DNA of 54,581 nucleotides, from positions 1 through 54,581 of the forward strand of contig SYJG01000283.1 of the NCBI GenBank assembly GCA_005798445.1, read 5' to 3'. Source of the stretch: Planctomyces sp. (GTDB lineage Bacteria > Planctomycetota > Planctomycetia > Planctomycetales > Planctomycetaceae). This document shows positions 3,404 to 35,889 of the stretch, piece after piece. Both the position numbers and the translations under genes were made by a program. The first letter of the stretch is position 1; each line of letters begins with the position of its first letter. The notes under the pieces are model-generated. The model searched no databases. It was not told the DNA's origin and saw only the letters and a program-made list of their open reading frames with translations.

Positions 3404-3470
3404 GATGGCGTTGGCCCGCCGTGGATCAGTTCATCCTTGAGGAATTCGTTCGACAGCGCACTTTTTGGTT

Positions 3471-3518
3471 GGAGTTCCGCCTTTAGGCGGTGATGGAACC
3501 GGCTAAAGCCGGGACTCC
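3471..3518. repeat. Double-hairpin intergenic repeat
   Basis: GGAGT (3471-3475) pairs with ACTCC (3514-3518) and encloses two small hairpins, CCGCC/GGCGG and CCGGC/GCCGG. It sits between the giant gene's stop and its terminator, so it would be in the 3' UTR. The form is that of a dispersed planctomycete repeat rather than a terminator. Confidence 0.6.
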
Positions 3519-15500: not shown

Positions 15501-18500
15501 CCGGGATATTGTCCAACGAAACGGGAATCGCCACTCCGCCGGTCGCTTGCCGAGTCAGCAGGAAGTTCCTCGAGGCGTCGGTCAAATCGATTCCGGTGAC
15601 GTTCTCCGAGAAGTTGATCGTCAGCATGTTGACCGCGCGCAACTTCGTAAACCCTTGCAACGACGGGGCCGGATTTGTCACCGTGACTCGTCCCTGGTCA
15701 ATAAAGCTGGTGACTTGCGGACCCGACAGTGTGCCATCTTTGACCCACACGACCTCACTGGCGATGCCGGTCGCCGTCAGCGGATCAGAGTCATCTGCCA
15801 GTGAATTACCGGTCAGATCTCTCAGCGGCGAGGCCGTATCTGGAGTCGTTGTGTTGGAATTGAGCAGCCGCAAAGTGTAGGTGCCGTCCACATCGGTCAG
15901 TCCGGAGGCGGACAGATCGAGTGTGTAGGTGGTCGGTCCGGTCTGAGTGATCGTGACGTTCGCGAGCGAAATCGTGGCGGCCCCGCGAGTCAACCTGAAA
16001 TCCTTGAAGTCAACCGGGCTACTGCCGTTGATCTTCTGCAGTGGCTCGCTGAACGTCACCGTGACAATGCCGGCATTCGTCCCGCGCGGACTGGTGATCG
16101 CGTCGATCGTCCCGGTTGGTGCGGCGTCTGGACCATTCGTCCAAATGTCTTGAGCCGCAACATTGAATTGACCCGTCGCTGGGCCAACGGTGTTGAGGGC
16201 AACATCTTTGATCGTGCCGTCCGCCAGCAGCGAGAGAATGTACGTTCCTTGAGCGAGCGTGACTGACGACAGGTTCAACACAAACCGAGTGTCGGGTTGC
16301 GTGCCGGATTGCGGCACGACCGTCAAGCCGGTCAGAGAAACCGTGCGAACCCAACGTCCGCCGCCAGTGTAGATGTCACCTCCCGGAACGGGATTCACGC
16401 CCACCGCATCCCACAAGTCGAACGTGTCCGAGGTCACGCCCATCACCGTGAAGACGCCGTTGGCGTTCGTGTTTCCTTGCACGCCGAAAATGGTGATGCG
16501 ATCGCCATCGGACAATCCATGTGCCGCCGACGTCACGACGATCGTCCCGCCGTTCGCCGCGTCGGAAATCGAGCCAGCCGTCGCCGTGGTGCCGTCGTCG
16601 TAGGCGAGGACATAATGTGCCGAGGCATCCAAGGGGTTCAGCGGATCGCTGGGATTCTCGAAGGTGACCGTCTCGCTGAAGATCGTGTTGAGCGCATCCA
16701 CCGGAGTCTGCCGCGGGTCCGGTGCGACATCGACGATGTCCGCCAGCGGAGCCGCCACGTCCAGGACCCAAGACGTTGAAAAACTTGTCAAGAATGTGTT
16801 GCCGGCGATGTCCACGATGCCGGAGTTCAAGGGATTCACGGTCAACCGATAAGTGCCAGCCTCCGCTGCAAGGTTGAGCAGATTCAGTTCATACTGGCTG
16901 CCCGACAAGGGAAACAACGGGAACAGCGGGCCCGACAGATCGACCGCCAAAATGTCGATCTTCGACGTGATCCCATCCGTGTTGGTCAGCAACAACGTGA
17001 AGTCGCTGTTGTCGACGCCGCTGACGGTCTCGCTGAAGTTGAAGATGATCGAAGCCGGGTGCGCGTTCACCGGCGAGGTGATGCTGGTCGTCACCAGCGA
17101 ATCCGCGACCGAATTCACGAAGGGCAGCGTCGTGTCCACAAGCCACGAGTCGCTGTCGGCCACTTTCAGAGTGACCACGGCCGGCGTCAAATGCGACGCT
17201 GGGGTGGTGCCGTTGAACCCTCGTGAGACCGTCAACGTTGCTCCGCTGACGCCAGTCACCAGCAATTGTTCTCCCTCGATCTCGATCACGAATGGGACTT
17301 CGCTCGACGCGAAACTCGGAAAACCGGCCATGCTCGACAACGTGATTTCCGAATCGCTGGAGTTGATATCCAACTGCAACGTGGATGCGACCGGCTCCGA
17401 GACGGAGTTCCCAGCCAGGTCTCGTACCACCGTGTTCGAATCGGTCGAGACGAACCGCAGTTCATAGGTGCCTGGAGCGCCTGAAAGTTGGTTGAGATTC
17501 ATGGTGTATTCGGTGGAGCTCACCGCGATCACCGTGACGCTGCCAAGATTCACTGGGACTGGACCGAGCCCGCTGTCGCGGAACAATTGGAAATCAGCGA
17601 TATCGACACCCGTGACTGGCTCGTTAAACGTCACGGTGACGATTCCAGCCGCAGCATTCCGGGGATTCGGCGTGACGGGCGAGATTGTCGCCACTGGGCT
17701 TGCGTTATCGATCGAGAAGAGGTGGCTCAACGCGTAATCTTGCAACACTCCCGCGCCGTCCGTCACTCGCGTCAGTACGTTGCCCTGGTTATTGAACTGG
17801 GTATGAACGTCCCGGATCGCCGTAAACGTTGGATTGCTGGAATCCACTGCCAAGACTTGGAATTCGTAGTTGCCGGGCAACGACGTGACGGAGGACAGGT
17901 CGATCGTGTAGCTCTTGAAGGCATCGGGGCTGTATGGGTCTTTGCTGCTGTTCACGGGAGACGCAGCCAAGCCCGCTAACGACACCACGACTCCGTCCCT
18001 GAGCAGTCGGAAATCGGTGATATCCACGAAACGGACGAATTCGCTGAAATCCACGATGATCGTGGCGGGACTGCTGTTTCCCAGAGTGGGGAAGTTGCGG
18101 ACCGTCGGAAACACAAATGTCGGAGAATCGACGTTGGGGAACGAGAAAGTCCCCTGAAGGACCGAATCCCAAAGCGTGTCAATTCGGCCGTTGATCGTGG
18201 GCAGCACCCCGTTGGCAATGGCTTTGGACGTATCATCAAAGTTGTCATCACTCCCCGGACCTGGCCCTGGGCTGTGAAACGCAAAGCCCGCCGTCGATCC
18301 CGAATCATCGAACCCGGATTCCACTCGCAGAGTCGTCACCGGCGTATTCGGATTGGGCCCTTGGCTGATGAACGTATTATTCAGTTGCAAGGAAAAGTCT
18401 CCGGTTTGAACCCCGTAGGCACGTTCGTCAACACCGGGATAAACAAAGGCATATCCGTTGGCGAAAAACTGAGGATTTCCGTCAACCGCCAAGCGGGTCG

Positions 18501-21500
18501 CGTTACGTGGACGGGTGGCACTTACGAACGGTCCAGGTGGACCAGCCGACCGCAAGCGAGATTTGAAGACCGGTTCCGGGTTCGTGTACTCCGGAGCCGG
18601 GCGGATCACATCCATGCCGTTGCCCGAGTTTCCGGTCACGACCGCATTCACACGAATCAGCGGGTCCAAAAACATCCCGAAAACGTAGGTCGTCGTGTTC
18701 CATGTCCCCTCTGTCAGCGGTGGAATAATGGCTGTGTACGGGGCAATCACAAAGTCGTTACCAAAGTTGCCTTCGAACTCATTGTTGGTCACTCGCAAAT
18801 TGACACGGCCGTTCCCCGCATTCGGATCACCACTATTGGCACCAACTTCATTCGCATAGAAATCGAATGCGGTCCCAATGGGGTTGGCACCTTGACCAAC
18901 ACCAGCCGCCAAGACGACCAAGCCGCTGCCATTCACTTCCGAGACACCACCGGTCTGAATGCTGTCTGGCAGTCCGATGCCGTTGTTTCGAATGATGTTC
19001 ATCGAAACGTCGACCATCATGTCGGGTGCAAACGCAGCATCCGCACTGACAACATTTTGCGTGACACCCAACGGTTCAGCGGCCGTCGGAATAGTATCTT
19101 GACGGCCGTGTTGGCCACGCTCGCCCGTGTTGACGAGGCGGATGCCATCCAACTGATTCCTGAGGATCTTGTTCTCGCCGGCTTCCGTGCCATCACCGAT
19201 TCGCAATTGCATCGTCCCGGCACCGATATTGAGGATGTCGATACCACGACCGGCATTCGCGTCGACAAAGTTATTCAGAATCAGGCCAAAAAACAGACCC
19301 AAGTCGTCGTTGTTCTCTCGCAATGCGCCAATCGTGGACCGCACAAGCTCGATGCCAGTGATCTCAATTCCGTCGCCTTGCTCTCCGGTCGTTGCGTTAT
19401 CCAGTTGCTTGGTGACGACGTTATCCCGAATCGTCGCCGAGATCACTCCTCGTATGCCATTGTTCGTCGGCAAAGTGGGAATGCCGCGGACAAGTTGGAA
19501 ATCAATCCCTTTGCCGAAATTGGCTTCGATCTGGTTGTGACGGATATCGATCTTTTCGTCGGAACTTTCCACAAAGATACCAGAGCGGCCGTTCGCCTCG
19601 ACCCGGTTATTTGTAATCGAGACCGTGCCCACCGCGGTGCTCCGCTCGAGAATCCCTTGCGGTGTGTTGACGATGACACGTCCGAAAATCTGGATGCCGT
19701 TCAGACCATTATTCTGGATCAGGTTGCCTTGGCCCTCTTGACCAATCACCAAAGGTGTGGTGACTCCAGTCGCCTCATCAAACAGTCCATGTTTGCCCGA
19801 AATCTGGATGCCGCTGAACTCGTTGTTGCTGATCGTGTTGTTGATCCAGGTTCCGCCAATTTGACGCTTGTCTGTGCTGAAATTGTCAAACCGGTCATTC
19901 AAATTGATGCCATTGCCATCGTTAAACCGGATTTGGTTTTCCGAGATATTGGCCAACAGTCGCGCGTCTGCTTGCGTTCGCAGGTTGATCCCGTCGTCAA
20001 GATTTCCAATGTCCGTTCCATTCGCATCCACACCGATGAAGTTGCCACTGATGTCGAAGTCCAACAAATCGACGCTTCCGTTGCGGGCATCGAGCAGGAT
20101 GCCATTTCGGTTCAAGCCAAAGGTGTTTCCCGATACGGTGACGGCCCGGGTGCTGGGGCTCGATGCAACCAGCTCAGACTTGTCTTCGCGCAGAAACTGC
20201 AATCCTGCGTGTGAGTTGTTCAGCCCATTGTTTCGGAAAGTATTGTTCAAGATCCGCAAATCCTGAACGATCGAAGCTTCCTGGCTATTGATCAAGACTC
20301 CGTTCGCCGCGTTGGGTCCAGCCAGGCCAGTACGTGTGACACCGATGAAGTTGTCTTCAATCACTGAACTCTTCAGGATGTTGACTGCCTCTTGATTGCT
20401 GTTGGTTCCTTCCAAGACCACCAAGAGGCCATCCGGGTTCGTTGCTGTCACGGTTGAGACCACGGGAAAACTCGTCGAGTTCGTGATCTCGTTGTTGCGA
20501 ATCACGAAGCTGCCAATCGCGGTATCTTGCAACGCCAGCGACACGGCACTTCCCTGACTGCCGTCGATGGTGTTGTCGGAAAAATTCAGCGAGAAAGAGT
20601 CCTCACTGACCAAAGTCGGCCTGGCCACAAAGTTGATCAAGACCCCTTCTCGACGATTTGTCGCCGCTCCGCCTTGAAGGGTGTTCGCCGTGATGTCTGC
20701 CAAAAAACTTGTGTCCGCGCGACCTGTGACGACAATCCCTCGTCCGTTATTGGCAGTCAGGGTATTTTGTGTGATGCCGTTGGTATCGTTCGCGGTACCG
20801 TCGCCTTGAAAATCCAAGAGCAATGGGAAGCCCCCGTTTCCTGCCACAAACGTGCTGGTTGCGGTCGCCACGACGGAGATCGCAGCGGCGGGATTATTGG
20901 CGGTGCCCGACAGGTTGCTGATCGTGTTGCCTGCAATTCTGGCACCGGCGGATGCCACGCCAATATTGCCAAGGTTGCTGTCCGTGAGATTCAACACGAT
21001 GCCGTTGGCCGTCACGGCTCCGACACCACTGGCACCGCTGCCGGTGATGGTATTGCCGACGATTCGCAAGTTCGTGACGTCGGAACGCTGCGTTCCCACA
21101 GCATTGGTCGATGTGGCGTTGATGCGAATTGCGTCACGAATTGTGTCGTTGACCGCAAATCCGGAAACGTTGAAACTCGGGTTGTTTGAAATCGAGACAG
21201 TGCTCAATGGGGAGTCGGTCGTGGTGACCGCAACGCTGCGAAGATTGATGTTCTCTTCGACTCGTAGATCGCCCACCGTCGTGCGATTCAAGGTGTAGGT
21301 GATCCCGCGAGCGGCTGGATTGGCCGCCCCGTCTTGAATGCGGCTATTGCGGACGCTGGCCTGATCGATTGCCGAATACAAAATCGAATTCGGAGATGTG
21401 ACGACGCGGAAGCCTTCCACCGTCGAATCTGACATCGTCAACTCGCCAATGTGGGTGGACTTGCTGACGCTTTCCAGTGACACGTTGACGCCACTGGCGC

Positions 21501-22776: not shown

Positions 22777-25700
22777 TCAGCTTCTCAATGCGATCAACGC
22801 ATCGAAGATGCCGTGGTAATCGATTTCGAACGCGGCAGCTTTTTCAGCGGCCGTATTGGAGGCATCGGTCAGCACGTCACTTCCAATTCCCGAGATGACA
22901 TCGGCATCTGCGCCCGTGCCGCTGATCAGCTTGTCGATGTCGAAATCTTCGAGGATCGGGGAGTCAGGATCGAAGGCACCCGACCACAGCTTGTCGGCAC
23001 CAGTTCCACCGTTGATGGAATCCTTGCCGATGCCACCGATCAGGATGTCACTGCCAATATCACCGCTGATGGTGTCATTTCCGGCTTCACCGTCGATGGC
23101 GTCATTGCCATCACCACCGCTGATACTGTCGTCGCCGGCTCCTCCGAGGATCGTGTCATTTCCCTTGCCCCCGCTGATCGTGTCACCTTTGACCTTGCCG
23201 CCAACCACTGGAGTGAACTCGTCACCGCCGTCGATTTGGTCGTCGCCCGCGCCTCCCGTGAGTTTGTCCTGTCCGGCCAAGCCTCTGATGATCATGGTCC
23301 CGGCAAATGTGCCACCGCTAATCGTGTCGTTGCCGGATGTGCCGATGAGTTCGGCAGCTTCGATTGTGTTGGGTATCAGCTTGTCGCTGCCACGGCCCGA
23401 CATCGTTGTGGGAGTCATCGACAAACTGGAGACGCCTGATTCCATAATCGTATCGCGAAGGCCGGCTCCGCCGTTAAACGTGTCGTCACCGAGTCCGCCA
23501 GTCAGCGAGTCATCGCCACCACCACCTTCCAGCACGTCGGCATTCGTTCCACCGATAAGTTTGTCAGCACTGTCGCCACCTTGCAGCGTTGTCTTTCCGG
23601 TAAAGAGATGGGCATCCAACGTGTTTTCGTCGTCGCCTCCGATCAGCTTCGCAGTCTCGATCGCGATCAAATCATCAATGCCCAGGCCGCTGAGCTGAGT
23701 GGGAGATAAGAATGTGAAGTCTACATTCCCGGACTCGAAGACTTGGTCGATGTCCGCCCCGCCATTGAGCGTGTTCGTGCCACCATTCCCGCTCAACGTG
23801 TCATTGCCAGTGTCGCCCGACAGCGAATCGTCGCCGTTGCCGCCGATCAAAACGTCGTTCTCGGCTCCCCCCTGCAACGTGACCGAACCCGTGAATGCTG
23901 CTGCATTCAGCGTGTTCCGGGACGCTCCACCAATGAGAACCGCGAAGACAATGTTGTTGAGCGTGTCCGATCCCAACGCGGACAAGACTGGTCCGGACAA
24001 CTTAAACCCGGACAAGTTCGAGTCCGTCAGGACAAAATTGACGTCGCCAGTTTCCTTGAGCGTGTCGGTGCCACCGCCACCATTGATCTCGTCGTCCCCT
24101 TCGCCGCCGGTCAGCACGTCGCCATTTCCGCTGCCGGTCAGGATATCGTTGCCTCCGGCACCATTGATCGTTGCTTTGCCGCCAAAGCCTGTCGCGTCGA
24201 TCTCATTGCCGCTCGATCCACCGGTCAGCACCGCAAATTGGAAGTTGCTGACAGCAGAATCGGTCACGAGTCCAACGGTGAGGCTGGTGCCGTTGAGTGT
24301 CATATTTTCGTTGGCCGTTTCGACCAATGTGTTGATCTCTGAAACGCCCGAGCCACCGTCCATGTCGTCACTGCCCGATGAGCCGGTCAGCGCGTCGTTG
24401 CCCGCTTCGCCGCGAAGGAAATCGTCACCGCTCCCGCCGATGAGCGTGTCATGACCGGCGCCTCCCAGCAATTCCAGATCACGTCCGAAGGCGGTCGTCG
24501 CCTTGAACAGATCGTTGCCGGTGCCCCCGTGGACCGTCACGTCCGGACCGGGCGTCGGGCCGGAGCTCGGATCTTCCAACGAATTGAGCAAGACGCTGTT
24601 GTCGCCATTTCCAACGTTAATCGAAAGTCTCGACAGAGTTGGGAAGAACACGGTGGGCGACGTGATCGATGAAAACTTGCTGACGTGATTGGTTGACACC
24701 CCGTCATCCGAGACAGTGACGACGTCAGACGCTGAATCGAAAACGAATTTCAACTCACTTGCAACTACGCTCGCGTCGAACCGAATCGTCTCCACGCCCA
24801 GCAGTTCAATCGGTCCAAAAATTGAGTCCGGATCGGTGATCGATGCAGAGTTCGCCGAGCTGAATTCCGTTTCAAGTTGATCGAACCCGGCATTCACGAT
24901 TCGAATCGTGTCGTTCATGCCGTCCCCATCGAACACCAAGCCTGAGGCACCCGTGGGTACGGGATCGCCACCGACATAATCCAACGTCAAAACATCTGCG
25001 AAATTCGAGCGTCCGTTGACGACAATCTCGGTCAAGAAGTTTGGGTCGCGAGCCGGGATGACGTCCTGCCCTGTGCTGGAGTTGCGAACGTGCAGCTTGT
25101 CGCCGAGGGGGCCAGTCGTCCGCACGAGTGTGAGCCCGGGCGTGCCGAGCCAATTCTCGGGTTCGATCGTCAGCGATTCGAAATCATCCGCCACACTGAC
25201 CACGATCGTTGCCGTCTTGGAGAGTCCCGTCGGGGCAACCAGGCTGTTGTCGGCAACCTTGACCTGAAGCGTGTATTCGGCCTTCGTTTCAAAGTCCAAT
25301 GCTGCGGAATTGGCGACTCGCAGGACTCCGTTCCTATCGACGGAAAATGCGTCATCGGTATTGCCCGACAGGATGCTGAATGACAGCAGATTCGCAGGCG
25401 TGTCAATGTCTTCGAAATCCAGCGTCAGAACTTCGGTCCCATCTTCGGAATTCTCAAGGATCGACGCCGTGCCGTCGGCAAGTGTCGGTGCGTCATTGAC
25501 CGGGTTGATCGTGACTTTGAAGGTTCGCTCAAAGAAAGTGACATTCCCATCGATCGTGTCATCGTCGGTGACTCGGACCGTGATATTCACGACGCCAAAC
25601 TCGTGAGCATTCGGAATAAGTTCGAATGTTGCTGTCCCATCGCCGTCCACATAAGTGATTAGCCCAGGGCTGGGGATGACCTCTTCATCGTCACTGGAGA

Positions 25701-28700
25701 CTTCGATCGTCAATTCTTGCGTCGATTCTGTTCCCCCCGGCCCTTCCGCGATTCCGGCCAGTGAAATCGAAATCGGAATCGCAGTCGGTTTTTCATCTCG
25801 GACGACATCGGCAATCGGATCGAGAGTCGGCGGATCATTGGTCGCGGTGCTGGCGACTTGGTATTTGAATGTCTTGGTGATGGATGTCCCATCGGCATCC
25901 GTGATCACCACAGTGATGAGAGTCGTCCCGGACACTAACGGATCCGGAACAACCGGCAAGACGGCGTCAAATCTCAGGACAGCGGTCTGGAGTGCGAGAC
26001 TAGGAGGAGTCAACGGGTCTTGCGTGAAAACAACCGGGATCTCTGTGCCGTTGAGGAACGCTGAACTGTCGTCATCCGCCGCGGTGGCGGTGATCGACAA
26101 GATTTGGGAATTCAAGTCGCTGTCACTAATGCCAGTCAGCGTCACATTGGGATCGACAGAGACATCTTCGATGAAAACGAAGTCGGAGGGCGAATCCAAC
26201 GTCGGTGCGTCAGCAACGTTGTTGACGTTGACCAGGAAGTCGCGGAAGTACACTGCGTTATCGAACGATGTCCCCTGCAGCACAACTTCGCCGCGTGTGT
26301 GAGCGACACCTAACGGACGAGCAGCCACCGTCAGAATGTTTCCGGCAACGCCGATGACCGTCATTACTTCGTTGCCGATCTTGATGTCGAAATTCGGCGT
26401 CGCACTCGTCGGGAAACCAGCAGCATTGGTGAGCGTGACTGTCGTCGCAATGTCTGAGATGTCCGCTGCCAGGAATCCGGACGTCCCGAGCACACCGTCT
26501 GGACCAGAGTCCTCGACGGCCACGCGGATCGTCGCTGACCCAAAGACATCTTCCCGGGGCGTGTAACGCAGAGTCCCGGTTGGATTCGCCGACGAGTAAT
26601 CCACCGCCACATGGGAAATCAGCGCTGACCCCACGAAGTCCACCGCGGTTCCAGCGATGGGTGTGCCAGCGACGGTTCCGTTGGCACGACGCTGCACCGT
26701 GAACGTGTTGAACGCCACGACCGAACTGGCAGTCGCAACCGCATGGTCTTGCTCCAAAGTTCCGTCTTGCGCACGTTCCACGGTCAAGACGTTGTCGGCC
26801 TTGCCAGTCACCAACATGACTTCCGAATCGATTCGGATCTTGTACGGGGATGCCGGCGTCGCGGTCGGGAAAGCGGAGGCATCGGTCAGCGTGACCGTGA
26901 GCGCACCGATCGGTGCGGCCGCGAACAACGAATTGGTGGGCGTGCCCGTGACCGTCATTTGTTCGTCGCCGAGCTGAATGGTGAAATTCGGTGTGGCGCT
27001 CTTCGGAAACGCCGAGACATCGAAATCCAACAAGGTGATCGTGTTCACGAGCTTCGAAGAGACATCGTTGGCAAGCGTTCCTCCCAAGAAAATCGGGCCC
27101 AACGAATCCGACAAGACCAACGGCGTGACTTTCAGCTTCTGAGACTCCAGCGGTCCCGCGGTGATACCTGTCAGCGGCACGGAGTTCTCTCCGGAATCTT
27201 CCAGAAGCAGTTTGGTCACTGCGGCACCGACGGCGTGCGCGGCGGCCGTGGTTCCGTTGGCCTCACGCAGCACAGTGAAGAGGTTGCCCGTCACCTTCGT
27301 GACAGTCATTTGTTCGTTATCGACTTGAACCGTGAAATTAGGCGTGCCGCTCACGGGAAACGCCGCGGGGTTGGCCACGGTGATCGTGTTGACGGTCGGC
27401 GAGACAACCGCAGTGACCGCAGAAGCCAGCGTTCCTGTCGGCCATACGAAAGTCACTGGAGCATCAACATCGTGCGTCGCGGCAACAGTTCCGTTGGCCT
27501 TTCGAACCACCGTGAAATTATTGCCTGTCACCTGAGTCACGGTCATTTGTTCGTAGTCGACCTGAATCGTGAAATTGGGTGTGGCACTCGCTGGAAACGC
27601 CGAGGCGTCGGTAAGAAAGATCTCGGTGTCGGTGTCGGTCATCGCGCCATCCAGTTTGTTGGATGGCAAAGCGATGGTCACAACAGCACCAGCGGCGTGC
27701 TTCGCTGCGGTCGTCCCATTGGCATTTCGCAGCACCGTGAAGGTATTGCCCGAAACCGCCGTGACGGTCATTTGTTCGTTATCGACTTGAATCGTGAAGT
27801 TGGGAGTGCCGCTCGCTGGAAACGCCGTAGCATTGGCCAACGTGATCGTCGTCACGGTTGGCGAGCTGACGGCACTGGCGAGCGTGCTGTTGGGCAACGC
27901 GATCGGATTGAGCGTTGGGAGATCATTCACCGGATTGACAGTGACCTCGATCGTCTTGGTGGTTGTCGCGTTGTCGGACGCCGTGCCGATCTTTCCATCC
28001 AAGCCGCCATCCATGATCGCGACTGTCAGAGTCGCTTTCCCCGATTTGAACGCAACCGGTGTGAAACTGATCGTCGCGTTGGTGTCCGGTACTGTGTTCG
28101 CCACCGTGGGATTTGGAATCAGCGCGGTGTTGTTACTGGTCGCCGACAGCACCAAGTAGTTCAAGGCATTCACCGGGGCGAACGGCTCGAACCGTCCCGC
28201 GTCGATGCCCGTCAGGTTGACCGTCTGTAGCGGAGCGCCCTCGGGGATCGGGGGCAGTGTGACCTTCGACGTGTTGACGACTGAGGTTCCATTGATGGTC
28301 GTGATATTCGGTTTGTCGTTGACGGGGTTCACCGTCACATTGATCGTACGAGTCTTCGTCAGATTGTCTGCCGCAGTGTTCGGCGCCGAAACGACGGCTC
28401 CCGCCAAATGCGCGGGAACGACCAGCAAGCCATTCACGTTGCGATCGACTGTGAAGGTTGCTCCAACTCCTGGCAAAGTGTCCGGAGTGATTCCCGTCAC
28501 CGTCATTTCTTCTTTGTTGATCCTGATGTTGAATCCTGGCGCGCTGGGGAACCGGCTGGCGTTGGCGACGAGTACGCTGCCATCCGAGTCCAAAACCTCG
28601 GCCGCCAGAAGATCGATCCCCAAGAGCTCGTCCGCGCCGCCATCGGTCACAGTGACGACGATGGACGCGGTACCGAATCGATCCGCTCCAGGAACGAAGG

Positions 28701-31700
28701 TCAACATCCCGGTCGTCGGAGGAGTCTCACCCGTGGATGGTTGCAAGTTCGACGGATTGTAGTTCAGTGCGAGGTTCGAGATCAGAATCGCCGTGACGTT
28801 GATGGGGACCGTGGCCCCATCATGTTTCTCGGCAGAGGTTCCGTTGACGGCGCGAGTGACCGTGAACATTGGCTGGGTTGGGACTGTCACATCAATCGCA
28901 GTGACAGTCATCTGCTCCTGTTCGACTTGGATTGTAAACGGCACTTTCGGCAAAGTGATCGGACTGGTGAGCGTCATGGTCAACTCGGTGTCCGCCATCA
29001 GCGAAGTCAATGTGCCGAGAATTCCCTGTCCACTCACGGCGTCCGACGTGGCAACCGTCACCATCAGATCTTGTGTGTTCGCGTCGTTGTCCGTGATGCC
29101 GAACAAACCAAATGCTGGCAGCACCAATGCGTCTTTGAGGTGAGCCACCTTCGTCGTGCCACCGAATGCGCGAGTGACCGTCAACGTGTTGCCCGACACG
29201 GCCGTGACTCGCATTTGTTCGGAATCAATCTGCACCGTCAGCGGCAGGACTTTTTGGAAGACGCTGCCGTCAACCACCACGATCGAAGTCTGAATGTTCG
29301 TGATATTGGCTGCGAGGGCGCTCGATCCATCTTCGTTGATCGTCAAATTCGCAATGTTATTGATCGTGGGCACGTCGCCGCTGGGTGCGACGGTGACCAG
29401 CAAGTCTCGAAAAGTCGTGTCGCTGAAGTCGGCTTCCCGAGTATCCAAATTGTTGTCCGAACCGCCGTCGAACACAGTCACTCTAATGACGGCAGCCCCA
29501 GACGTATTCGCTTTGGGAGTGAACCGAATCGAACCGGACGGATTTCCGTCGGTGTAGAAGACCGTAATCGGACCCGTCAGTGTCGGGTTGTCAGAAATGG
29601 CCACGACCTTCAGTTTTTGCCGCGCTCCGGCTCCTTCGCCGTCGCTGATGCCGCTCAGGGAAACGATCTGCTGCCCCGAACCTTCGGGAATCGTCAGCGT
29701 TCCCGGAACGGCGGGATTGGGCGAGATCACCGCCAAGGTCGGTAGATCGTTGACTGGCTTCACTTCGACGGGGATGTCGCGCGTGATGCTGAGGTTATCA
29801 AAGGAATCCGAATGAGCGACGACATCTTGAGCCAAATGCGCGGCCGCAGTCGTTCCGTCGATACCACGAGTGACTGTCAAACTATTCCCGCTAATACCCG
29901 TGACGCGCAGGGTCTCAGCGCCAATTCGAATCTTAAACGGCTGAACGACTTTGTCGTTGATCGGGTGGAACACTGCGTCCGTGCCATCTTCGCCGCGAAT
30001 GACCGTGAACGTATTGAACGCGACAACCGGATCATCGATGAAATGAGCCCCCTGCGACGTCCCGTCCTGGGCACGCAGAACTTGCAAGACGTTTCCATTC
30101 TTTCCGGTCACCAACAATACCTCGGCACCGATTCCGGTACCGATTCGGATCTTGTAGCCGGCTGTCGGTGTCGCGTTGGGGAATGCGGACGCGTCGTCCA
30201 GCGTGATCGTCGTCAAGGGCGGGGTGACCATCAACAGGTTAGCAACCAACTTATCGGTGGGAGTGCCCGTGACCGTCAGCACTTCGTTGCCGATTTGAAT
30301 CTTGAACGGGACCGACAGTGACGAGAATGGCGTCACATCGCTTAACGTGACCGTGGTGTCTGTTCCCGTCGCGGCTACGGCCAATTTATCGGTGAGGGGT
30401 GACAGATAGACTGCCGGATTTGCCACCGTAATCGTTGCGGCCGTGGCCGAAATGTTGGCGCTGAGCGCGGTTGCTTCTCCTGGCTTGAGATCTGGCCCAG
30501 CGTCGGTCAGGGTCACATGAAAGATGTCGAAGCCTGAGAGGTCTGCCGTCGGCTCGTAATTCAGCGGCCCGGCGTCCGCAGCAGTTGTGTACAAGTTCGG
30601 CTTCGTAAACAACGTCGTGTTGTTGTTCGTCACCGTGAACTGCAGGCTCTGAGTGCCCTCCCCAACACCAGCGGTCACCTGATTCAAATCCAACGACGAC
30701 AATGGCGTGTCTTCGTCGATGGTGATGGCCGATTCGAGCGGCACAAATGTGGGAGATTCCGTGACATCGAAGCGAAAAACGAGTCGCCGCGTTCCATTGT
30801 CCGAGGGAATACCCGGAGGGGCATTCAACACACCGTCCACGCCAGCGTCTTCCACGACGACTGTGATGAACGACGGCCCTCCCGCGCTGGTGTTGGTTTT
30901 GCCCGCAATGGGGCTGAGCTTCATGGTGGCGGTCTTGGCACCATCCACATAATCAATGGAGGGATCCGCAAGCAGCGCGGGGTTGCTACTCGTGGCGGTG
31001 ACTTTCAAGTTCTGATTCTCTTTGCCTCCGGCAGAGATCCCCTTTAGGGCGACATTGAACGGCAGCACATTCTTGGGGATGGAAATATCGGGAAGCGGGT
31101 TGATCGTGGGAACATCGTTCGTGGGCTTCACCGTGACATGGATCGTCTTCTTGATTTCGTTGTTATCGACCCGCGTCAACAAATCCTGATCGAATCCGGA
31201 ATCGACGACGGTGAGCGTGATGTTGGCTTCGCCGAAGCGATCCGTGTTGTTGGTGAAATTGAGAATCGCGAATCCGTTCGGTGAGACGTAGATGACTTGA
31301 GGGTCGGGAACGATCTCCGCGTTGTCACTGACGGCGATGACCTGCAGTTTTTGTAACTCGCCATCAAAGTGGCGGTCCAGAATGTCCACGATTCCGTCGC
31401 CGTTGACATCATCGGTGACGAATGCCCGTCCGCCACGATCCGTCAGACCAGTCAGCGGGAGCGGGTCGTTATTGACTGGCCCCGGGAGCGGAGAGCTATT
31501 GACCGTCAAGAGGTTCACATCCAGCCCGGCAAATTTTCCCGTGAACTCGACCCCAACAGCCGCTCCTGGCAACGAAGTTCCGCTGGTCTTGATGTCCGCG
31601 TTCGTCACGGACTGCAAGCGAACCAATGCATCGTGAACGCTGAGAGCTCCTGAAACGACGGGTGCCGCAAAGGCGACGGGATTGAGGATGGCCCGTTTTA

Positions 31701-34700
31701 GGTTCGCCGTCACGGTCACGGTTTGATTGCCTTGCTCCAGCGTCGAGATGCTGATGATTGGCCGCGGAAAACTGGGAGTCAGATTGTTATCACCCGTCAG
31801 AACAATCAACTGAGGATGATTGAGGTCGCCAGCCGGTCCTGAAAACGTGACGACAAACCGAGTGAATGGAAAGTTGGGGTCTTCCTGGACGGTCACACCG
31901 GTCAAGAAGGGAGCGTCAATGATCTGCAAGGCACTTTCAATATTATCGGCGGTGAGGCTGCCATCGGCTTGATCGTATTGGATGGGTTGCGTTGTGAAGG
32001 AACGCGACGGCTGGAAGTTGAATCCGTCACTGAAGGTCAGTTGGAACGTTCCACCGGTCGCTCCAAAGATGTCAATCTGCTGGCGTTCGTCGTTCGTCAA
32101 TGTTGCGCTGTTGAGTTGGTTGACCGGCGTCGGCGGGTTCACGGGAAAACTGATCGCCGGAACGTTTTGGTGCGCGTACTGGCCAGTAAATTCGATCGTG
32201 GCCGGACTCGACGATAATGGGCCACCAATCACGATGATGTCGCCCGGATTGATAATGTTTCCGGGCAAAGCCTCGAGTGCCGCTTGGATTGCTTCCGCAT
32301 CGGCGTCGTAGGGAATCGGGGCGGTCGTGGCCCCACCGAACACCAAACGGTACGTGCCACCTTTGGGGCCGGTCCCATTCACATTGAAGTTACTGCCGTT
32401 GAACTGCAACCTCTGAATTTGGTTTCCGGTCAGGCCACCATTGTCGGATGTCAAATTGTCGAGGTTCAACTTACCCAGCGTGTTGATGAACCTGATCGAC
32501 ACCGGCGCTGTTCCCAATGGACCACCGAGCACCTCCACTCCCGAAGGACCGACCACAGGAAGTGCGGCGAGAGCATTCTTGATCTCGAAGGAGTCCGCGT
32601 TGTAGGCAATGACGCCCGTCGTCAGGATCTGTGACACTCGCGATTGGTCCAAATGCAGCGGCGCGATGGTGGTGCCATTGACGCCACGATTGACGAGCAA
32701 TTGATCGCCAAAGACTCCCGTCACCAACATGTCTTCAGAGCCGATCCGAATTCCATACGGCTGGAACGGCGTCGCAGAGCTCAATACCTGGGGATCGACA
32801 ACCGTGATGATGTCGTCGATCTGCGTCACGCTCGGGAACACGCCGGGAACGAAAGGGACGCCAGGGATGCCGCTGGGGACTAAGCCGTCGCCATGTGCCG
32901 CAATCGAGGTTCCATTCACGCCGCGGACCACCGTCAGGGTGGTCCCAACGACTCTTGTGACAAACATGTCTTCGCGGTCAACCCGGATCGTGAAGTGGTT
33001 GTCAACGGCATCATTTGCCAGATGCGAGGCAAGTGCGGTCCCGTCTTGAGCACGCTGAACGGTTAGGGTCGTGGTAGCGGGGGTGAGCCCGTCGCCCACG
33101 GATGTAACGGTCATCACTTCGCTGCCGACCAGAATCTTGAAGGGGATGGTGAGCGGTAAGAATGCCGCCACAGAGTTGAGCGAGAGGATCGTATCGGTAG
33201 CGAGACTACCCACGCTGCTAGACAAGGAGTCTGTCGCGACGGATGGGAAGACCCCACTGGCATTCGTTGCCGTGATCGTCGTGGCGAGGTTGTCAATATC
33301 CGCGAGGAGCGGTGTCGACGGCGGTGCGTCCAAATCCGCTGGCTCGTTCAGGGCGGTCGTGCGTTGTTCGATGACGTTGGCAAAATCGGGATGCGCCGCC
33401 GGCGTGGTCCCGTGATAGCCGCGCTCGACTTTGAGAATCGCGCGGAAGGGATTCCCGCTGACCGGCGTGAAGGTGACATCTTTGACGAGCATCTCCTCGG
33501 CAGTCGTCCCAATCACGTCGATGGGATTCGCGAGCGATCCGTTGTGCGCGGGTGCATTCGCCCTACGATCGACCGTCAACACTGGCTGGGTTGGGAAGGT
33601 CAAATCAACAGCAGTGACGGTCATCTGCTCCTGTTCGACTTGAATGATGAACGGTGTCGGCGGAAGAAACGTGATCGGATTCGTGAGTGACAGCATCTCC
33701 GTCGTCGCCAAGATTGTCGCCGCCATCGCCGAATTCAATGTTCCCAGAATGCTCGATCCGACCGAAATCACATACGGGACGAATGGAGTGGCCACCGTCG
33801 GGAAACCAATGGTGTCATCAACCGTGATATCCATCACCTCCCCCGCCGTGGCGGTGGGGATCGCATCATCCAGGCTAGTGACCGCGCCGATGTTGTTGGC
33901 AAAGGTCAGCGTGAAATTCCCGCCAGTCGCGTTGCTGGACAGGCTCAGAGTTTCATCACGACTCACCGTGGCCGGTGCATCGTAGGGAATCAAATCGGAT
34001 GTGTAGGAGTGCGTGCCGTCGTTGAAGGTCAGCGTGAAAGCCCCCCCAAACGTCGTCACGGGCGTGATGCTGACGAGTTGTTGTTCATTGCCGATGGGCG
34101 ACGATCCACCACCGGCGGTGATGCCTGTCACCGTCACCGCGGTGACTCCCGCGAGATCATCTTCGTAGAGCACCACCGCGTTGATCAGCGTGACCGTTGT
34201 GTTGGAAACGTGCGTTGCAATCGTGGTCCCGTTCACTGCGCGTGTCACCGCAAACGTGCTCGTGCCATCGGGGTTCAACACCACGCTCGTGACCCGCATT
34301 CGTTCGTTTTCGACTTGAACCTCGAAATTGGGATTGGCGGTGGGCGGAAAGCGACTGCCATCGGCGACCGTCAGTGAGGAATCCGTCACTTGATTGTCGG
34401 CCGTTAGTTTCGTGGTGGCCGATTGAACGTCATCGACCGTGGGTGTGTCATTGGCCGGCGACACCGTAAATGTAAATGTCACTGATCGGGTGATGTTGTC
34501 GCGAGTCGCTGGAAAATTCGTGATCGTGAGGTTGCCGGTATCCGAGTCGTAGAATTTACCGACAATGTTATCCACTCCGCCGTCTTCGATCGTGACGGTG
34601 ATTGTCGCGCTGTTGTCTCCACTCTTCAAAACCGCGACTGGTGCCCCTTTCACCGGATTGATGATGAGTTTTCCAATCTTCGACATGTTCACGTCATCGT

Positions 34701-35466
34701 ATTTGACAGTCGGAATTCCCGTGAGAAAGGGATTTGTGGTGCCGAAGTTGGGATCGACATAGACCAAACGATTTTGCCCGTTGTTCTTTGGGTTATCCGC
34801 CCCCCCTCCGGCGGTGATGCCGGTCAAGTCAATGGACACCTGCGGCGTGTCTTCCATCACAGAGACGTTGGAAATGGCATCGATCGAAGGAACGTCATTC
34901 AACCGGACGGGAATGTCGAGTGTCCTGAAACCATCCGTCACCGTGATCGTCGTTGATCCATACAGAGCGGATCCTGGAGCGAAACGCACATAGGCTTCTG
35001 GCGACAGTGACTCTTGAAAAACATCCAGATCCGGGCTGGTCGAATTCGATAACGGGCGAACGATATTGAACCCGTCATTGAATTGAGTGATGTCGTTTGG
35101 CTGCGGATTGATAAACGCCCTAATGTCCGGGTTTGCGGAGAAGAATATTCCGCCACCAAATATACCACCGTCGGAAAAGGAGAGCGTGATCTGCGAGGGA
35201 TCCAAGGAATCTGGAACGTCCGTTTGAACCTCAGAAAAATTCGGTTCGCCCGAAGCCGCGGACGAATGCGAAATCAACATTGGCGAGATGACCGCATTGG
35301 GCACGGGTGGAAACTGGAATAAAAAAGCGGGCAATGCTCTCTCTTCCAGACGTTCCGTGCTTTGAGTCAAGTCGTAACGTCGACTTTTGCGGAGCTGTGC
35401 GCTGTTCTTGCGGTGAGAAAGGCCAGCAGCCTTTTTGAACGACTCAAGCCATGAAGACAGAAACAT
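22777..35466 (-). CDS. Giant LEPR-XLL protein (cadherin/Ig-like, nested modules, RTX), 4,229 aa
   Basis: The frame is open to 35718, but ATG 35466 is chosen: it follows AGGGAG at 7 bases and gives MFLSSWLESFKKAA, matching the start of the neighbouring giant protein, with LEERALP at 40-46. The body is a chain of cadherin/Ig-like units with the linker NDxPTL and motifs such as VVVEDAGVDGVL. There are also GGTYRLVF...IPYDADAEAIQAALEALP-type domains (about 480-1300), and a true cadherin-like unit (ILENSEDGTEVL) near 3320-3425. RTX nonapeptides occupy about 3620-4190. About 18 copies of the VDSE-type module sit in loops of these domains, several nested. The last residues (AAAFEIDYHGIFDALIALRS) lack the INE-F ending of the other RTX proteins here. 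Function unknown; probably an adhesive or structural surface protein. Confidence 0.92.
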   Translation of the reverse strand: MFLSSWLESFKKAAGLSHRKNSAQLRKSRRYDLTQSTERLEERALPAFLFQFPPVPNAVISPMLISHSSAASGEPNFSEVQTDVPDSLDPSQITLSFSDGGIFGGGIFFSANPDIRAFINPQPNDITQFNDGFNIVRPLSNSTSPDLDVFQESLSPEAYVRFAPGSALYGSTTITVTDGFRTLDIPVRLNDVPSIDAISNVSVMEDTPQVSIDLTGITAGGGADNPKNNGQNRLVYVDPNFGTTNPFLTGIPTVKYDDVNMSKIGKLIINPVKGAPVAVLKSGDNSATITVTIEDGGVDNIVGKFYDSDTGNLTITNFPATRDNITRSVTFTFTVSPANDTPTVDDVQSATTKLTADNQVTDSSLTVADGSRFPPTANPNFEVQVENERMRVTSVVLNPDGTSTFAVTRAVNGTTIATHVSNTTVTLINAVVLYEDDLAGVTAVTVTGITAGGGSSPIGNEQQLVSITPVTTFGGAFTLTFNDGTHSYTSDLIPYDAPATVSRDETLSLSSNATGGNFTLTFANNIGAVTSLDDAIPTATAGEVMDITVDDTIGFPTVATPFVPYVISVGSSILGTLNSAMAATILATTEMLSLTNPITFLPPTPFIIQVEQEQMTVTAVDLTFPTQPVLTVDRRANAPAHNGSLANPIDVIGTTAEEMLVKDVTFTPVSGNPFRAILKVERGYHGTTPAAHPDFANVIEQRTTALNEPADLDAPPSTPLLADIDNLATTITATNASGVFPSVATDSLSSSVGSLATDTILSLNSVAAFLPLTIPFKILVGSEVMTVTSVGDGLTPATTTLTVQRAQDGTALASHLANDAVDNHFTIRVDREDMFVTRVVGTTLTVVRGVNGTSIAAHGDGLVPSGIPGVPFVPGVFPSVTQIDDIITVVDPQVLSSATPFQPYGIRIGSEDMLVTGVFGDQLLVNRGVNGTTIAPLHLDQSRVSQILTTGVIAYNADSFEIKNALAALPVVGPSGVEVLGGPLGTAPVSIRFINTLGKLNLDNLTSDNGGLTGNQIQRLQFNGSNFNVNGTGPKGGTYRLVFGGATTAPIPYDADAEAIQAALEALPGNIINPGDIIVIGGPLSSSPATIEFTGQYAHQNVPAISFPVNPPTPVNQLNSATLTNDERQQIDIFGATGGTFQLTFSDGFNFQPSRSFTTQPIQYDQADGSLTADNIESALQIIDAPFLTGVTVQEDPNFPFTRFVVTFSGPAGDLNHPQLIVLTGDNNLTPSFPRPIISISTLEQGNQTVTVTANLKRAILNPVAFAAPVVSGALSVHDALVRLQSVTNADIKTSGTSLPGAAVGVEFTGKFAGLDVNLLTVNSSPLPGPVNNDPLPLTGLTDRGGRAFVTDDVNGDGIVDILDRHFDGELQKLQVIAVSDNAEIVPDPQVIYVSPNGFAILNFTNNTDRFGEANITLTVVDSGFDQDLLTRVDNNEIKKTIHVTVKPTNDVPTINPLPDISIPKNVLPFNVALKGISAGGKENQNLKVTATSSNPALLADPSIDYVDGAKTATMKLSPIAGKTNTSAGGPSFITVVVEDAGVDGVLNAPPGIPSDNGTRRLVFRFDVTESPTFVPLESAITIDEDTPLSSLDLNQVTAGVGEGTQSLQFTVTNNNTTLFTKPNLYTTAADAGPLNYEPTADLSGFDIFHVTLTDAGPDLKPGEATALSANISATAATITVANPAVYLSPLTDKLAVAATGTDTTVTLSDVTPFSSLSVPFKIQIGNEVLTVTGTPTDKLVANLLMVTPPLTTITLDDASAFPNATPTAGYKIRIGTGIGAEVLLVTGKNGNVLQVLRAQDGTSQGAHFIDDPVVAFNTFTVIRGEDGTDAVFHPINDKVVQPFKIRIGAETLRVTGISGNSLTVTRGIDGTTAAAHLAQDVVAHSDSFDNLSITRDIPVEVKPVNDLPTLAVISPNPAVPGTLTIPEGSGQQIVSLSGISDGEGAGARQKLKVVAISDNPTLTGPITVFYTDGNPSGSIRFTPKANTSGAAVIRVTVFDGGSDNNLDTREADFSDTTFRDLLVTVAPSGDVPTINNIANLTINEDGSSALAANITNIQTSIVVVDGSVFQKVLPLTVQIDSEQMRVTAVSGNTLTVTRAFGGTTKVAHLKDALVLPAFGLFGITDNDANTQDLMVTVATSDAVSGQGILGTLTSLMADTELTMTLTSPITLPKVPFTIQVEQEQMTVTAIDVTVPTQPMFTVTRAVNGTSAEKHDGATVPINVTAILISNLALNYNPSNLQPSTGETPPTTGMLTFVPGADRFGTASIVVTVTDGGADELLGIDLLAAEVLDSDGSVLVANASRFPSAPGFNIRINKEEMTVTGITPDTLPGVGATFTVDRNVNGLLVVPAHLAGAVVSAPNTAADNLTKTRTINVTVNPVNDKPNITTINGTSVVNTSKVTLPPIPEGAPLQTVNLTGIDAGRFEPFAPVNALNYLVLSATSNNTALIPNPTVANTVPDTNATISFTPVAFKSGKATLTVAIMDGGLDGKIGTASDNATTTKTIEVTVNPVNDLPTLNPIALPNSTLASAVSSPTVTTITLANATAFPASGTPNFTIQVDNEQMTVTAVSGNTFTVLRNANGTTAAKHAAGAVVTIALPSNKLDGAMTDTDTEIFLTDASAFPASATPNFTIQVDYEQMTVTQVTGNNFTVVRKANGTVAATHDVDAPVTFVWPTGTLASAVTAVVSPTVNTITVANPAAFPVSGTPNFTVQVDNEQMTVTKVTGNLFTVLREANGTTAAAHAVGAAVTKLLLEDSGENSVPLTGITAGPLESQKLKVTPLVLSDSLGPIFLGGTLANDVSSKLVNTITLLDFDVSAFPKSATPNFTIQLGDEQMTVTGTPTNSLFAAAPIGALTVTLTDASAFPTATPASPYKIRIDSEVMLVTGKADNVLTVERAQDGTLEQDHAVATASSVVAFNTFTVQRRANGTVAGTPIAGTAVDFVGSALISHVAVDYSSANPTGTLRYTPREDVFGSATIRVAVEDSGPDGVLGTSGFLAADISDIATTVTLTNAAGFPTSATPNFDIKIGNEVMTVIGVAGNILTVAARPLGVAHTRGEVVLQGTSFDNAVYFRDFLVNVNNVADAPTLDSPSDFVFIEDVSVDPNVTLTGISDSDLNSQILSITATAADDDSSAFLNGTEIPVVFTQDPLTPPSLALQTAVLRFDAVLPVVPDPLVSGTTLITVVITDADGTSITKTFKYQVASTATNDPPTLDPIADVVRDEKPTAIPISISLAGIAEGPGGTESTQELTIEVSSDDEEVIPSPGLITYVDGDGTATFELIPNAHEFGVVNITVRVTDDDTIDGNVTFFERTFKVTINPVNDAPTLADGTASILENSEDGTEVLTLDFEDIDTPANLLSFSILSGNTDDAFSVDRNGVLRVANSAALDFETKAEYTLQVKVADNSLVAPTGLSKTATIVVSVADDFESLTIEPENWLGTPGLTLVRTTGPLGDKLHVRNSSTGQDVIPARDPNFLTEIVVNGRSNFADVLTLDYVGGDPVPTGASGLVFDGDGMNDTIRIVNAGFDQLETEFSSANSASITDPDSIFGPIELLGVETIRFDASVVASELKFVFDSASDVVTVSDDGVSTNHVSKFSSITSPTVFFPTLSRLSINVGNGDNSVLLNSLEDPSSGPTPGPDVTVHGGTGNDLFKATTAFGRDLELLGGAGHDTLIGGSGDDFLRGEAGNDALTGSSGSDDMDGGSGVSEINTLVETANENMTLNGTSLTVGLVTDSAVSNFQFAVLTGGSSGNEIDATGFGGKATINGAGGNDILTGSGNGDVLTGGEGDDEINGGGGTDTLKETGDVNFVLTDSNLSGFKLSGPVLSALGSDTLNNIVFAVLIGGASRNTLNAAAFTGSVTLQGGAENDVLIGGNGDDSLSGDTGNDTLSGNGGTNTLNGGADIDQVFESGNVDFTFLSPTQLSGLGIDDLIAIETAKLIGGDDENTLDAHLFTGKTTLQGGDSADKLIGGTNADVLEGGGGDDSLTGGLGDDTFNGGAGLRDTIMESGVSSLSMTPTTMSGRGSDKLIPNTIEAAELIGTSGNDTISGGTFAGTMIIRGLAGQDKLTGGAGDDQIDGGDEFTPVVGGKVKGDTISGGKGNDTILGGAGDDSISGGDGNDAIDGEAGNDTISGDIGSDILIGGIGKDSINGGTGADKLWSGAFDPDSPILEDFDIDKLISGTGADADVISGIGSDVLTDASNTAAEKAAAFEIDYHGIFDALIALRS
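22900..24600 (-). repeat. RTX nonapeptide repeats of the 4,229-aa protein
   Basis: Blocks of GGxGxDxL repeats alternate with a recurring ~70-residue spacer (of the type SNFQFAVLTGGSSGNEIDA and IETAKLIGGDDENTLDA). Each RTX block plus spacer looks like a duplicated super-repeat, seen at least five times. The final block ends about 40 residues before the stop. Confidence 0.88.
26275..26463 (-). repeat. VDSE-type module, single copy
   Basis: FPTSATPNFDIKIGNEVMTV is followed by GNILTVAARPLGVAH. The second half is shortened and the NGTT element is lost. It interrupts a cadherin-like unit between EDSGPDGVLGTSG and SFDNAVYFRDFLVNV. Confidence 0.7.
26640..27082 (-). repeat. Nested pair of VDSE-type modules
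   Basis: The outer copy starts at GTLANDVSSKL and reads FTIQLGDEQMTVTGTP. It is then interrupted at 26938 by a complete inner copy (about 26713-26938; YKIRIDSEVMLVTGK, VLTVERAQDGT), and resumes at 26712 with FNTFTVQRRANGT. The two halves of the outer copy join without loss if the inner one is removed. Confidence 0.82.
27200..27890 (-). repeat. Three tandem VDSE-type modules
   Basis: Three closely similar copies (NFTIQVDNEQMTVTAV, NFTIQVDYEQMTVTQV, NFTVQVDNEQMTVTKV), each followed by FTVxRxANGT and a His. They sit between NDLPTLNPIALPNST and LLEDSGENSVPLTGITAG, which would otherwise form one continuous cadherin-like linker. DNA similarity between the copies is high, so tandem duplication is likely recent. 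Confidence 0.82.
28385..29330 (-). repeat. Three dispersed VDSE-type modules
   Basis: Single copies near 28385-28610 (FNIRINKEEMTVTGI), 28790-29020 (FTIQVEQEQMTVTAI) and 29110-29330 (LTVQIDSEQMRVTAV), in one or two adjacent cadherin-like units. The 29110-29330 copy separates TINEDGSS from FGITDNDANTQDLMVTVAT, which in uninterrupted units are contiguous. Confidence 0.75.
29805..30470 (-). repeat. Triple-nested VDSE-type modules
   Basis: The outer copy starts ATITVANPAVYLSP (30403-30470) and finishes QPFKIRIGAETLRVTG...RGIDGTTAAAH (29805-29943). Inside it is a middle copy: LTDKLAVAATGTDTT...VLTVTGTP (30259-30402) and FNTFTVIRGEDGTDAVFH (29944-30018). Inside that is an inner copy (30019-30258; YKIRIGTGIGAEVLLVTGK, LRAQDGTSQGAH). 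The middle/inner junction residues (TVTGTP and FNTFTV) are the same as in the nested pair at 26640-27082. Confidence 0.82.
32625..33895 (-). repeat. Five VDSE-type modules (two nested pairs and one single) in one host loop
   Basis: A GGxFTLTF...IxYNADxxxIxxALxALP-type host domain is cut after GGNFTLTFANN (about 33897-33925) and resumes at VIAYNADSFEIKNALAALP (from about 32617 downward). The insert of roughly 420 residues holds a nested pair (outer halves PYVISVG / GTTAEEMLVKDV), a second nested pair (outer halves GVFPSVATD / HFTIRVDREDMFVT) and a single copy (YGIRIGSEDMLVTGV). Confidence 0.75.
34180..34400 (-). repeat. VDSE-type module, first copy
   Basis: FEVQVENERMRVTSV, then FAVTRAVNGTTIATH, directly after the linker NDTPTVDDVQSATTK in the first third of the cadherin-like units. 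Confidence 0.75.
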
Positions 35467-35889
35467 CGAGTGACTCCCTGACGTTGCGAGGAGCGCAGCC
35501 GGACACGTTCCAGAAAAAATCGAACGACGCTGCAACTCCATCATGTTGGCCCGCGGGGACACAGCCTGTCCTCGCTTGTCCAAAATACCCGGCTGTTGGA
35601 GGGTGGGAAAGGCGGCTCCGGCAAATTTCTCCACGTTGTCCGCCGGGACGCCGCGACACAGCGGGAACGACGATCTCGACACGTTGAGAGGTTTTGTCAG
35701 TCCCGCCTGTCGCAGCAATTGGTGAATCTCGATTCCTCGAATTCCGTGGCCTCACGCAAAATCGAGCTCAAGTCCCGGATTCATCCCGCGCACCGAAAAC
35801 CGGGGGGCATGCTGTTGCGTACGGAATCGTCCTCCGAGATCGGAGGATCGCTCGTTGTCGCTAGCCTTTGCCACCTGTAGATTGTCCCC
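35467..35889. other. Divergent intergenic region
   Basis: Separates the giant minus-strand gene (start 35466) from the plus-strand radical SAM gene (start 35890), so promoters for both should be here. The only structure I see is a palindrome, TCCTCCGA/TCGGAGGA, at 35830-35847. It lies 43 bp before the radical SAM start. The open frame that extends the giant gene upstream to 35718 shows no domain. Confidence 0.5.

Follow-up and report, generated by a model that had tools for sequence, protein, structure and literature searches.

Nested copies of a putative phage-type beta module in a giant planctomycete protein and their filled and empty states in related genomes

How can a protein module come to lie inside a copy of itself that in turn lies inside a third copy, with the reading frame kept throughout? 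The question is raised by a giant protein encoded on the window, that is, the whole 54,581-nt contig SYJG01000283.1 (GCA_005798445.1), whose own genome is coded G000 below, its relatives being coded G005, G006 and so on. The open reading frame lies at 22777-35718 on the minus strand, as do all the features of this protein and of its giant neighbour given here; it encodes 4,313 residues from a TTG codon, or 4,229 from the in-frame ATG at residue 85, and it has orthologues in G005 and G006. The protein combines repeated host domains carrying modules, one cadherin match and C-terminal RTX calcium-binding repeats. Pfam recognises Cadherin at 3417-3509 and HemolysinCabind; neither Pfam nor NCBIfam gives a family above cut-off for the module region, and the host domains around the nests, for which "cadherin-like" is a label of our own, are themselves without a Pfam match. 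A role in surface adhesion or decoration would be our guess, made from the RTX and Cadherin matches and from the phage relatives described below. The neighbouring giant protein (3541-22110; 6,189 residues) gives eight good module matches, and the nested-pair scan finds no nested pair in it. Elsewhere in the window, positions 48083-53266 encode a 1,727-residue protein having Calx-beta repeats and two DJ-1/PfpI stretches, and the adjoining kinase also has a DJ-1/PfpI domain.

One module in two halves

The triple nest fills a loop of the host domain at 29734-30756, which was aligned with paralogous host domains holding no module or one in the same loop. Its pieces, whose coordinates were worked out by hand from the protein listing and the profile matches, follow one another in the direction of translation: the N-part of the outer copy (TALSANIS...VYLSP, 30397-30471), the N-part of the middle copy (LTDKLAV...TVTG, 30265-30396), the inner copy with its linkers (TPTDKL...VVAF, 30016-30264), the C-part of the middle copy (NTFTV...NDKVV, 29944-30015) and the C-part of the outer copy (QPFKIRIG...AQDVV, 29818-29943). 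Against a 74-position profile made from nine uninterrupted module copies, the fragments are complementary, the outer copy covering positions 1-22 and 28-74, the middle copy 2-46 and 51-74, and the inner copy 8-74. Alone, the halves of the outer copy score 13.6 and 63.4 bits, and rejoined they reach 82.6; those of the middle copy score 47.4 and 28.7 bits alone and 75.4 when rejoined, a value somewhat favoured by the inclusion of the G005 and G006 middle copies in the scoring profile. For reference, 152 intact copies have a median of 75.4 bits and a 10th percentile of 47.6. The other nested sets of the window, rejoined in the same way, give 54.9 bits (second site), 71.0 (third set) and 37.4 (fourth set, the weakest). 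Of all eight split copies, those in other proteins and genomes included, seven score between 54.9 and 82.6 bits and the eighth 37.4. When a half was joined to random host sequence, the median was 32.0 and the maximum 50.0 bits (200 trials); when halves were crossed between different split places, they were 36.8 and 62.5 bits (38 chimeras).

The remainder of the giant protein is built from the same pieces. The second nested site has an outer copy at 26944-27084 (N-part) and 26638-26709 (C-part), recognised by the profile and by comparison with relatives, around an inner copy with linkers at 26710-26943 (TPTNSL...VVAF). The third set (32878-33315) is two deep, with an outer copy at 33232-33315 and 32878-33000, which is split in the very loop that is occupied in the outer copy of the triple nest, and an inner copy at 33001-33231. 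The fourth (33364-33852), also two deep and more diverged, has an outer copy at 33754-33852 and 33364-33501. Three intact modules stand in tandem at 27214-27873 (27676-27873, 27451-27654 and 27214-27414). Single intact modules lie at 26281-26472 and 28387-28608, in host loops like the one that holds the triple nest, and, as found by the profile search of the own genome, at 28804-29010, 29122-29316 and 34189-34407; the profile places a further single module at 32644-32832. The 23 profile matches in the protein divide, in a sorting that we made ourselves, into nine intact modules and 14 members of the four nested sets, with zero leftover fragments, and a pairing as complete as the one observed arose in 1,023 of 1,000,000 random orders of 23 pieces. 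The total is 18 modules.

The first-pass annotation had described a module of about 70 residues split by a second copy itself split by a third, and this description holds: the halves are complementary, rejoin to full scores and, compared with the controls, align as two parts of one module rather than as independent repeats, the nesting being in frame, of one module family and three deep. Its figure of about 26 modules fits the two giant proteins taken together (18 and eight), the nested one alone having 18. Stronger evidence than the scores or the order statistics is provided by the relatives discussed below, in which the middle copy is uninterrupted.

The module appears to be a small, self-folding beta domain of the phage-virion kind. 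Folded alone with 34 sequences, it is modelled with a pLDDT of 93.7 and six strands (3-6, 16-19, 33-37, 40-48, 51-55 and 71-73), and all eight split copies are interrupted in loops of this confident model. Three are split before the third strand (the outer copy of the triple site, the third set and the copy on C377, which lies in a third protein of the own genome), one at the turn from the third strand to the fourth (the fourth set) and four in the hairpin between the fourth and fifth strands (the middle copy, the second site and the cases of G330 and G023, which belong to two other genera). The AlphaFold model of the host domain with the triple nest, made from a 7-row alignment, has a pLDDT of 46 and does not display the nest, its host part reaching block values of about 58-88 ahead of the insert and of 74-79 in the strand that follows. 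The alignment was kept to seven rows, as single modules aligned across mixed halves and would bias the pairing. A geometry in which each outer copy is closed around its guest, the guest being extruded from a loop, is what we would infer from sequence; the modules might instead pair across copies by domain swapping rather than rejoin their own halves.

The kinship with phage virions comes from structure and from profiles. Among the best 50 of 964 matches to solved structures are the phage virion chains 8jov_1 (TM 0.83), 9in6_M (0.79) and 8rk3_b (0.75); 8jov_1 is the sole one with E under 0.001 among these best 50 of 964, and RNA polymerase is absent from the same 50. In viral structure models, 75 match at E up to 0.001, with TM up to 0.90. 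The families phrog_7578 (function unknown) and phrog_1101 (tail protein) each match 20 of 34 module members, and phrog_11439 (tail fiber) is also among the related phage families. By tblastn on phage records, 28 records encode module relatives, and the one annotated record that was opened carries a single module copy, within a tail sheath protein. When viral contigs were scanned with one module, 95 pattern matches came up, and tblastn confirmed none of them as a relative.

Filled and empty loops in relatives and in unrelated proteins

Both giant genes are present in the same-genus genomes G005 and G006; with 86-87% identity in the second giant protein, these two and G000 are close relatives. 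At the triple locus, G005 and G006 have the outer and middle copies only, the middle copy reading straight through the position that the inner copy occupies in the window. In G008 the corresponding host loop, placed by a shared DGEGAG motif just downstream and by blastp (which gave several overlapping alignments for the repeated domains), carries a single module. The depth at this locus is thus one in G008, two in G005 and G006, and three in the window. As other host-domain copies of the window have no module or one in the same loop, the comparison of paralogues and relatives indicates that this kind of host loop holds zero, one, two or three modules. The second nested site is filled in the window and in G006 and empty in G005. 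Rearrangement within the gene is also visible: the tandem of three modules in the window and G006 corresponds to one apparently hybrid module in G005, and the G006 orthologue begins with a divergent allele of ~2,600 residues, with 46-71% identity to the window against 75-89% for the remainder.

Nesting was sought further in 56 stretches, namely the window and 55 others chosen for their richness in modules, so that its frequency there is not that of a random sample. The nested-pair scan gave 302 positive-scoring matches, 232 of them near full length, and 14 rows, of which two cross-pairings of unrelated fragments were dropped. The 12 accepted pairs comprise five in the window, three in G006 and one each in G005, C377, G330 and G023, the G330 case being that of two tandem modules inside one module. 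Three further pairs in G005 and G006 were found by eye, the scan having missed outer copies at two G005 sites and one G006 site, whose N-part was below threshold. No second three-deep case appeared in the 56 stretches. When the two related inner copies are counted as one event, seven insertions can be distinguished in three genera.

The module itself is widespread. It gives 47 matches on four contigs of the own genome, all in stop-free open frames of 583 residues or more; among relatives, a match occurs in 24 of 40 genomes, counting the own one, and it occurs in 95 of 297 genomes drawn from the class, a survey in which at most 19 candidates were scored per genome. One of the own contigs, C216 (L047, four matches), agrees with contig C329 of G007 (L048) at 99.98% identity over 6,241 bases; the two genomes are counted as different species, and this near-identity may reflect cross-contamination of bins or a very recent transfer.

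Its hosts are unrelated. In the own genome, an amino-acid permease (C144, L049:2021-3769; PF13520, E 2.9e-60) has one module between two hydrophobic stretches. When nine same-genus homologues, 65-70% identical to it, were aligned, the module was found in G005 only and eight were without it; G006, G003, G009 and G011 seem to belong to a somewhat separate subgroup, and the eight empty sites may therefore not all be strict orthologues; G008 and G002 gave no permease homologue at the threshold used. In another genus, an M64-type peptidase (L094:1-1161) is seemingly interrupted, with its Pfam match at 84-159 and the module at 163-232. An SU10-type phage capsid protein in a bacterial genome (L114:1258-2430) has the module within the capsid domain match, and another host protein has a TadE/G-like match below cut-off. 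A family with a single module, of about 573-675 residues, occurs in many genomes of the taxonomic family (L100-L104, L108, L109, L111, L112 and L116); Pfam found Ig-like domains in the two members scanned, and a resemblance to PilO-type pilus-assembly proteins is only an impression. One module family thus sits at non-equivalent places of unrelated proteins: the host domains, the permease, the peptidase and the capsid protein. Together with the other nested sites, these cases bear out the earlier suggestion that the module enters loops repeatedly, its own among them.

Origin of the nests

The model that we propose, and towards which we lean with modest confidence, is that of an insertional domain that loops tolerate, those of the module itself among them, with recombination passing filled copies from module to module. 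The DNA for one whole module would enter a gene by illegitimate insertion, a step that we infer, and the insertion would survive when it falls in frame within a surface loop of a folded domain. The accepting loops of the module would chiefly be two, the hairpin turn that joins the strands 'EqMTVT' and 'fTVtR' and the loop that precedes the 'PFkIqig' strand; because its own fold offers such loops, modules would also accept modules. Since the sequences flanking the slot are alike from one module copy to another, recombination between copies could turn an empty slot into a filled one, or the reverse. Such exchange would spread, deepen or erase nesting without a new insertion each time.

Several observations touch on this second step. 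The inner copies of the triple and second sites form one clade (support 99/96) and have alike linkers, TPT[D/N]..L and VVAF; on account of this common clade and these linkers, a filled module was probably copied between the sites. The third level would then probably not require a fresh insertion, a filled slot having been passed from one module to another. The DNA flanking the hairpin slot is only moderately alike, with mean identities of 69% for the 18 bases before it and 74% for the nine after it, taken over 53 copies picked by protein pattern; some copies share nearly the same DNA in both flanks. In the module tree, which rests on 71 columns and leaves many forks without resolution, the inner copy of the triple site branches off before the inner copies that the window and G006 have at the second site diverge from each other. 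Because it branches early, its absence in G005 and G006 may be a loss and not a recent gain in the window; gain in G000, loss in both G005 and G006, or import from an unsampled lineage may each account for it. The outer copies of the second site hint at a loss in G005, for the empty copy of that genome and the filled one of G006 cluster with each other (95/63).

The nested blocks could also have been made elsewhere, in phages or in other lineages, and imported whole by allelic recombination, no nesting taking place in this lineage. The divergent allele that forms the N-terminal part of the G006 orthologue, and an inner copy at the triple site older than the split of the second-site inner copies, speak for such imports. 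Against them, the window and G005 differ by the inner copy despite 80% identity in the surroundings of the triple site, and the insertions counted in three genera are seven. We regard an origin by import as rather unlikely.

Could a mobile element at the level of DNA, open in one frame, be inserting itself into genes and into its own copies, in the manner of the Rickettsia palindromic elements or the PARCELs? The many dispersed in-frame copies, the unrelated genes that are hit and the self-insertion, as seen in transposons, would fit; the DNA itself makes this explanation improbable. Six inserts have no notable terminal repeats, palindromes or RNA folding: the inverted matches shared by their first and last 45 bases are of six bases at most (3.8 expected for that one), and their folding energies are ordinary (z -0.5 to 1.1). 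Near-identical DNA copies were not found, the best identity between copies in the own genome being 79% (494 of the 561 pairs of 34 near-full copies, in a gap-friendly alignment), and these pairwise identities give no sign of a transposon burst. All 47 own-genome matches lie in the long stop-free frames mentioned above, and among the ORFs of 60 residues or more in the 56 stretches, none under 250 residues has a match. Furthermore, the codons of the module have dN below dS (between G000 and G005, 0.124 and 0.401, a ratio of about 0.31, as compared with 0.102, 0.441 and 0.23 for the host parts): the module is under purifying selection.

A third explanation does without any insertion and supposes that tandem copies lost complementary pieces, the end of one and the start of the next, and so mimic nesting. 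Tandem arrays do exist (27214-27873) and vary in number, G005 having one module; but two matched deletions would be needed for each split copy, all five split copies in the giant protein are complementary, and relatives have two of them in one piece at the same locus (the middle one of the triple site and the outer one of the second site), which leaves complementary loss with little probability. Finally, that the halves are independent short repeats, or that the stretch forms one continuous different fold, is hardly credible: the model of the triple region, with its pLDDT of 46 and no clear insert structure, would allow it, but joined halves score as whole modules where mismatched joins mostly do not, the intact module is confidently folded, and the middle copy is uninterrupted in relatives.

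Returning to the tolerated insertional domain, is the process still going on? Because copies in the own genome are at most 79% identical in DNA, no fresh event has been caught. We think it unlikely that some specific or phage-borne process continues, in this living genus, to insert the phage-type module into the loops of unrelated genes and of the module itself. If this were true, nesting depth would be a changing character and the step of domain insertion, long unclear, could be watched. With depths of one to three and with loops filled or empty, the relatives open domain insertion and spread to direct test, and they link a virion-type phage module to the growth of giant bacterial proteins.

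Comparison with known systems

The first-pass annotation knew of no described mechanism that produces such an arrangement; self-nesting, however, is on record. HABAS domains (sandwich-barrel hybrid motif) are reported to be self-nested in the beta-prime subunit of RNA polymerase, in the cyanobacterial Si3 (PMC11515920), and the nesting in cyanobacterial RNA polymerase reaches six levels in one case, according to the portion of the account cited here (PMC13114784). In systems of this kind the nested copies fold as separate domains and are in some cases domain-swapped, as described for Si3, and the cited part of the first paper states the insertion mechanism to be unclear (PMC11515920). The HABAS domain itself is a four-stranded open sheet with a GD-box-like motif. 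What the two cases have in common is a small beta domain that has entered unrelated proteins and, recursively, its own copies. By that description, the present case is set apart in that the HABAS nesting is mainly ancient, whereas here depths of one, two and three are found among members of one genus, and in that the module here sits in a giant protein and has relatives in phage virions. In the open-access literature searched for self-nested domains, no paper on the nesting of this module was found.

The Rickettsia palindromic elements resemble the module by their in-frame insertion into the genes of unrelated proteins, and are described in the excerpt cited as palindromic DNA families of about 150 bp (PMC10969869). 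Unlike them, the module has no palindrome or terminal repeats in the six inserts and no near-identical copies, and it is a folded domain of 70 residues with mutual nesting. The PARCELs offer another partial likeness, in that they encode a repeat that transfer and shuffling have carried into surface proteins; they are tandem repeats of 25 residues with dyad symmetry, and nesting is not mentioned in the part of their description cited here (PMC2996958).

The phage virion beta module (phrog_7578, phrog_1101 and phrog_11439; 8jov, 9in6 and 8rk3) is related by profile and alike in fold; in the one annotated case that was opened it is a single copy in a tail sheath protein, whereas the bacterial module is nested. 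Self-nesting being already known from HABAS, what our sequence comparisons would add is the variation of nesting depth within one genus, in a module of apparent phage type that has settled in unrelated hosts.
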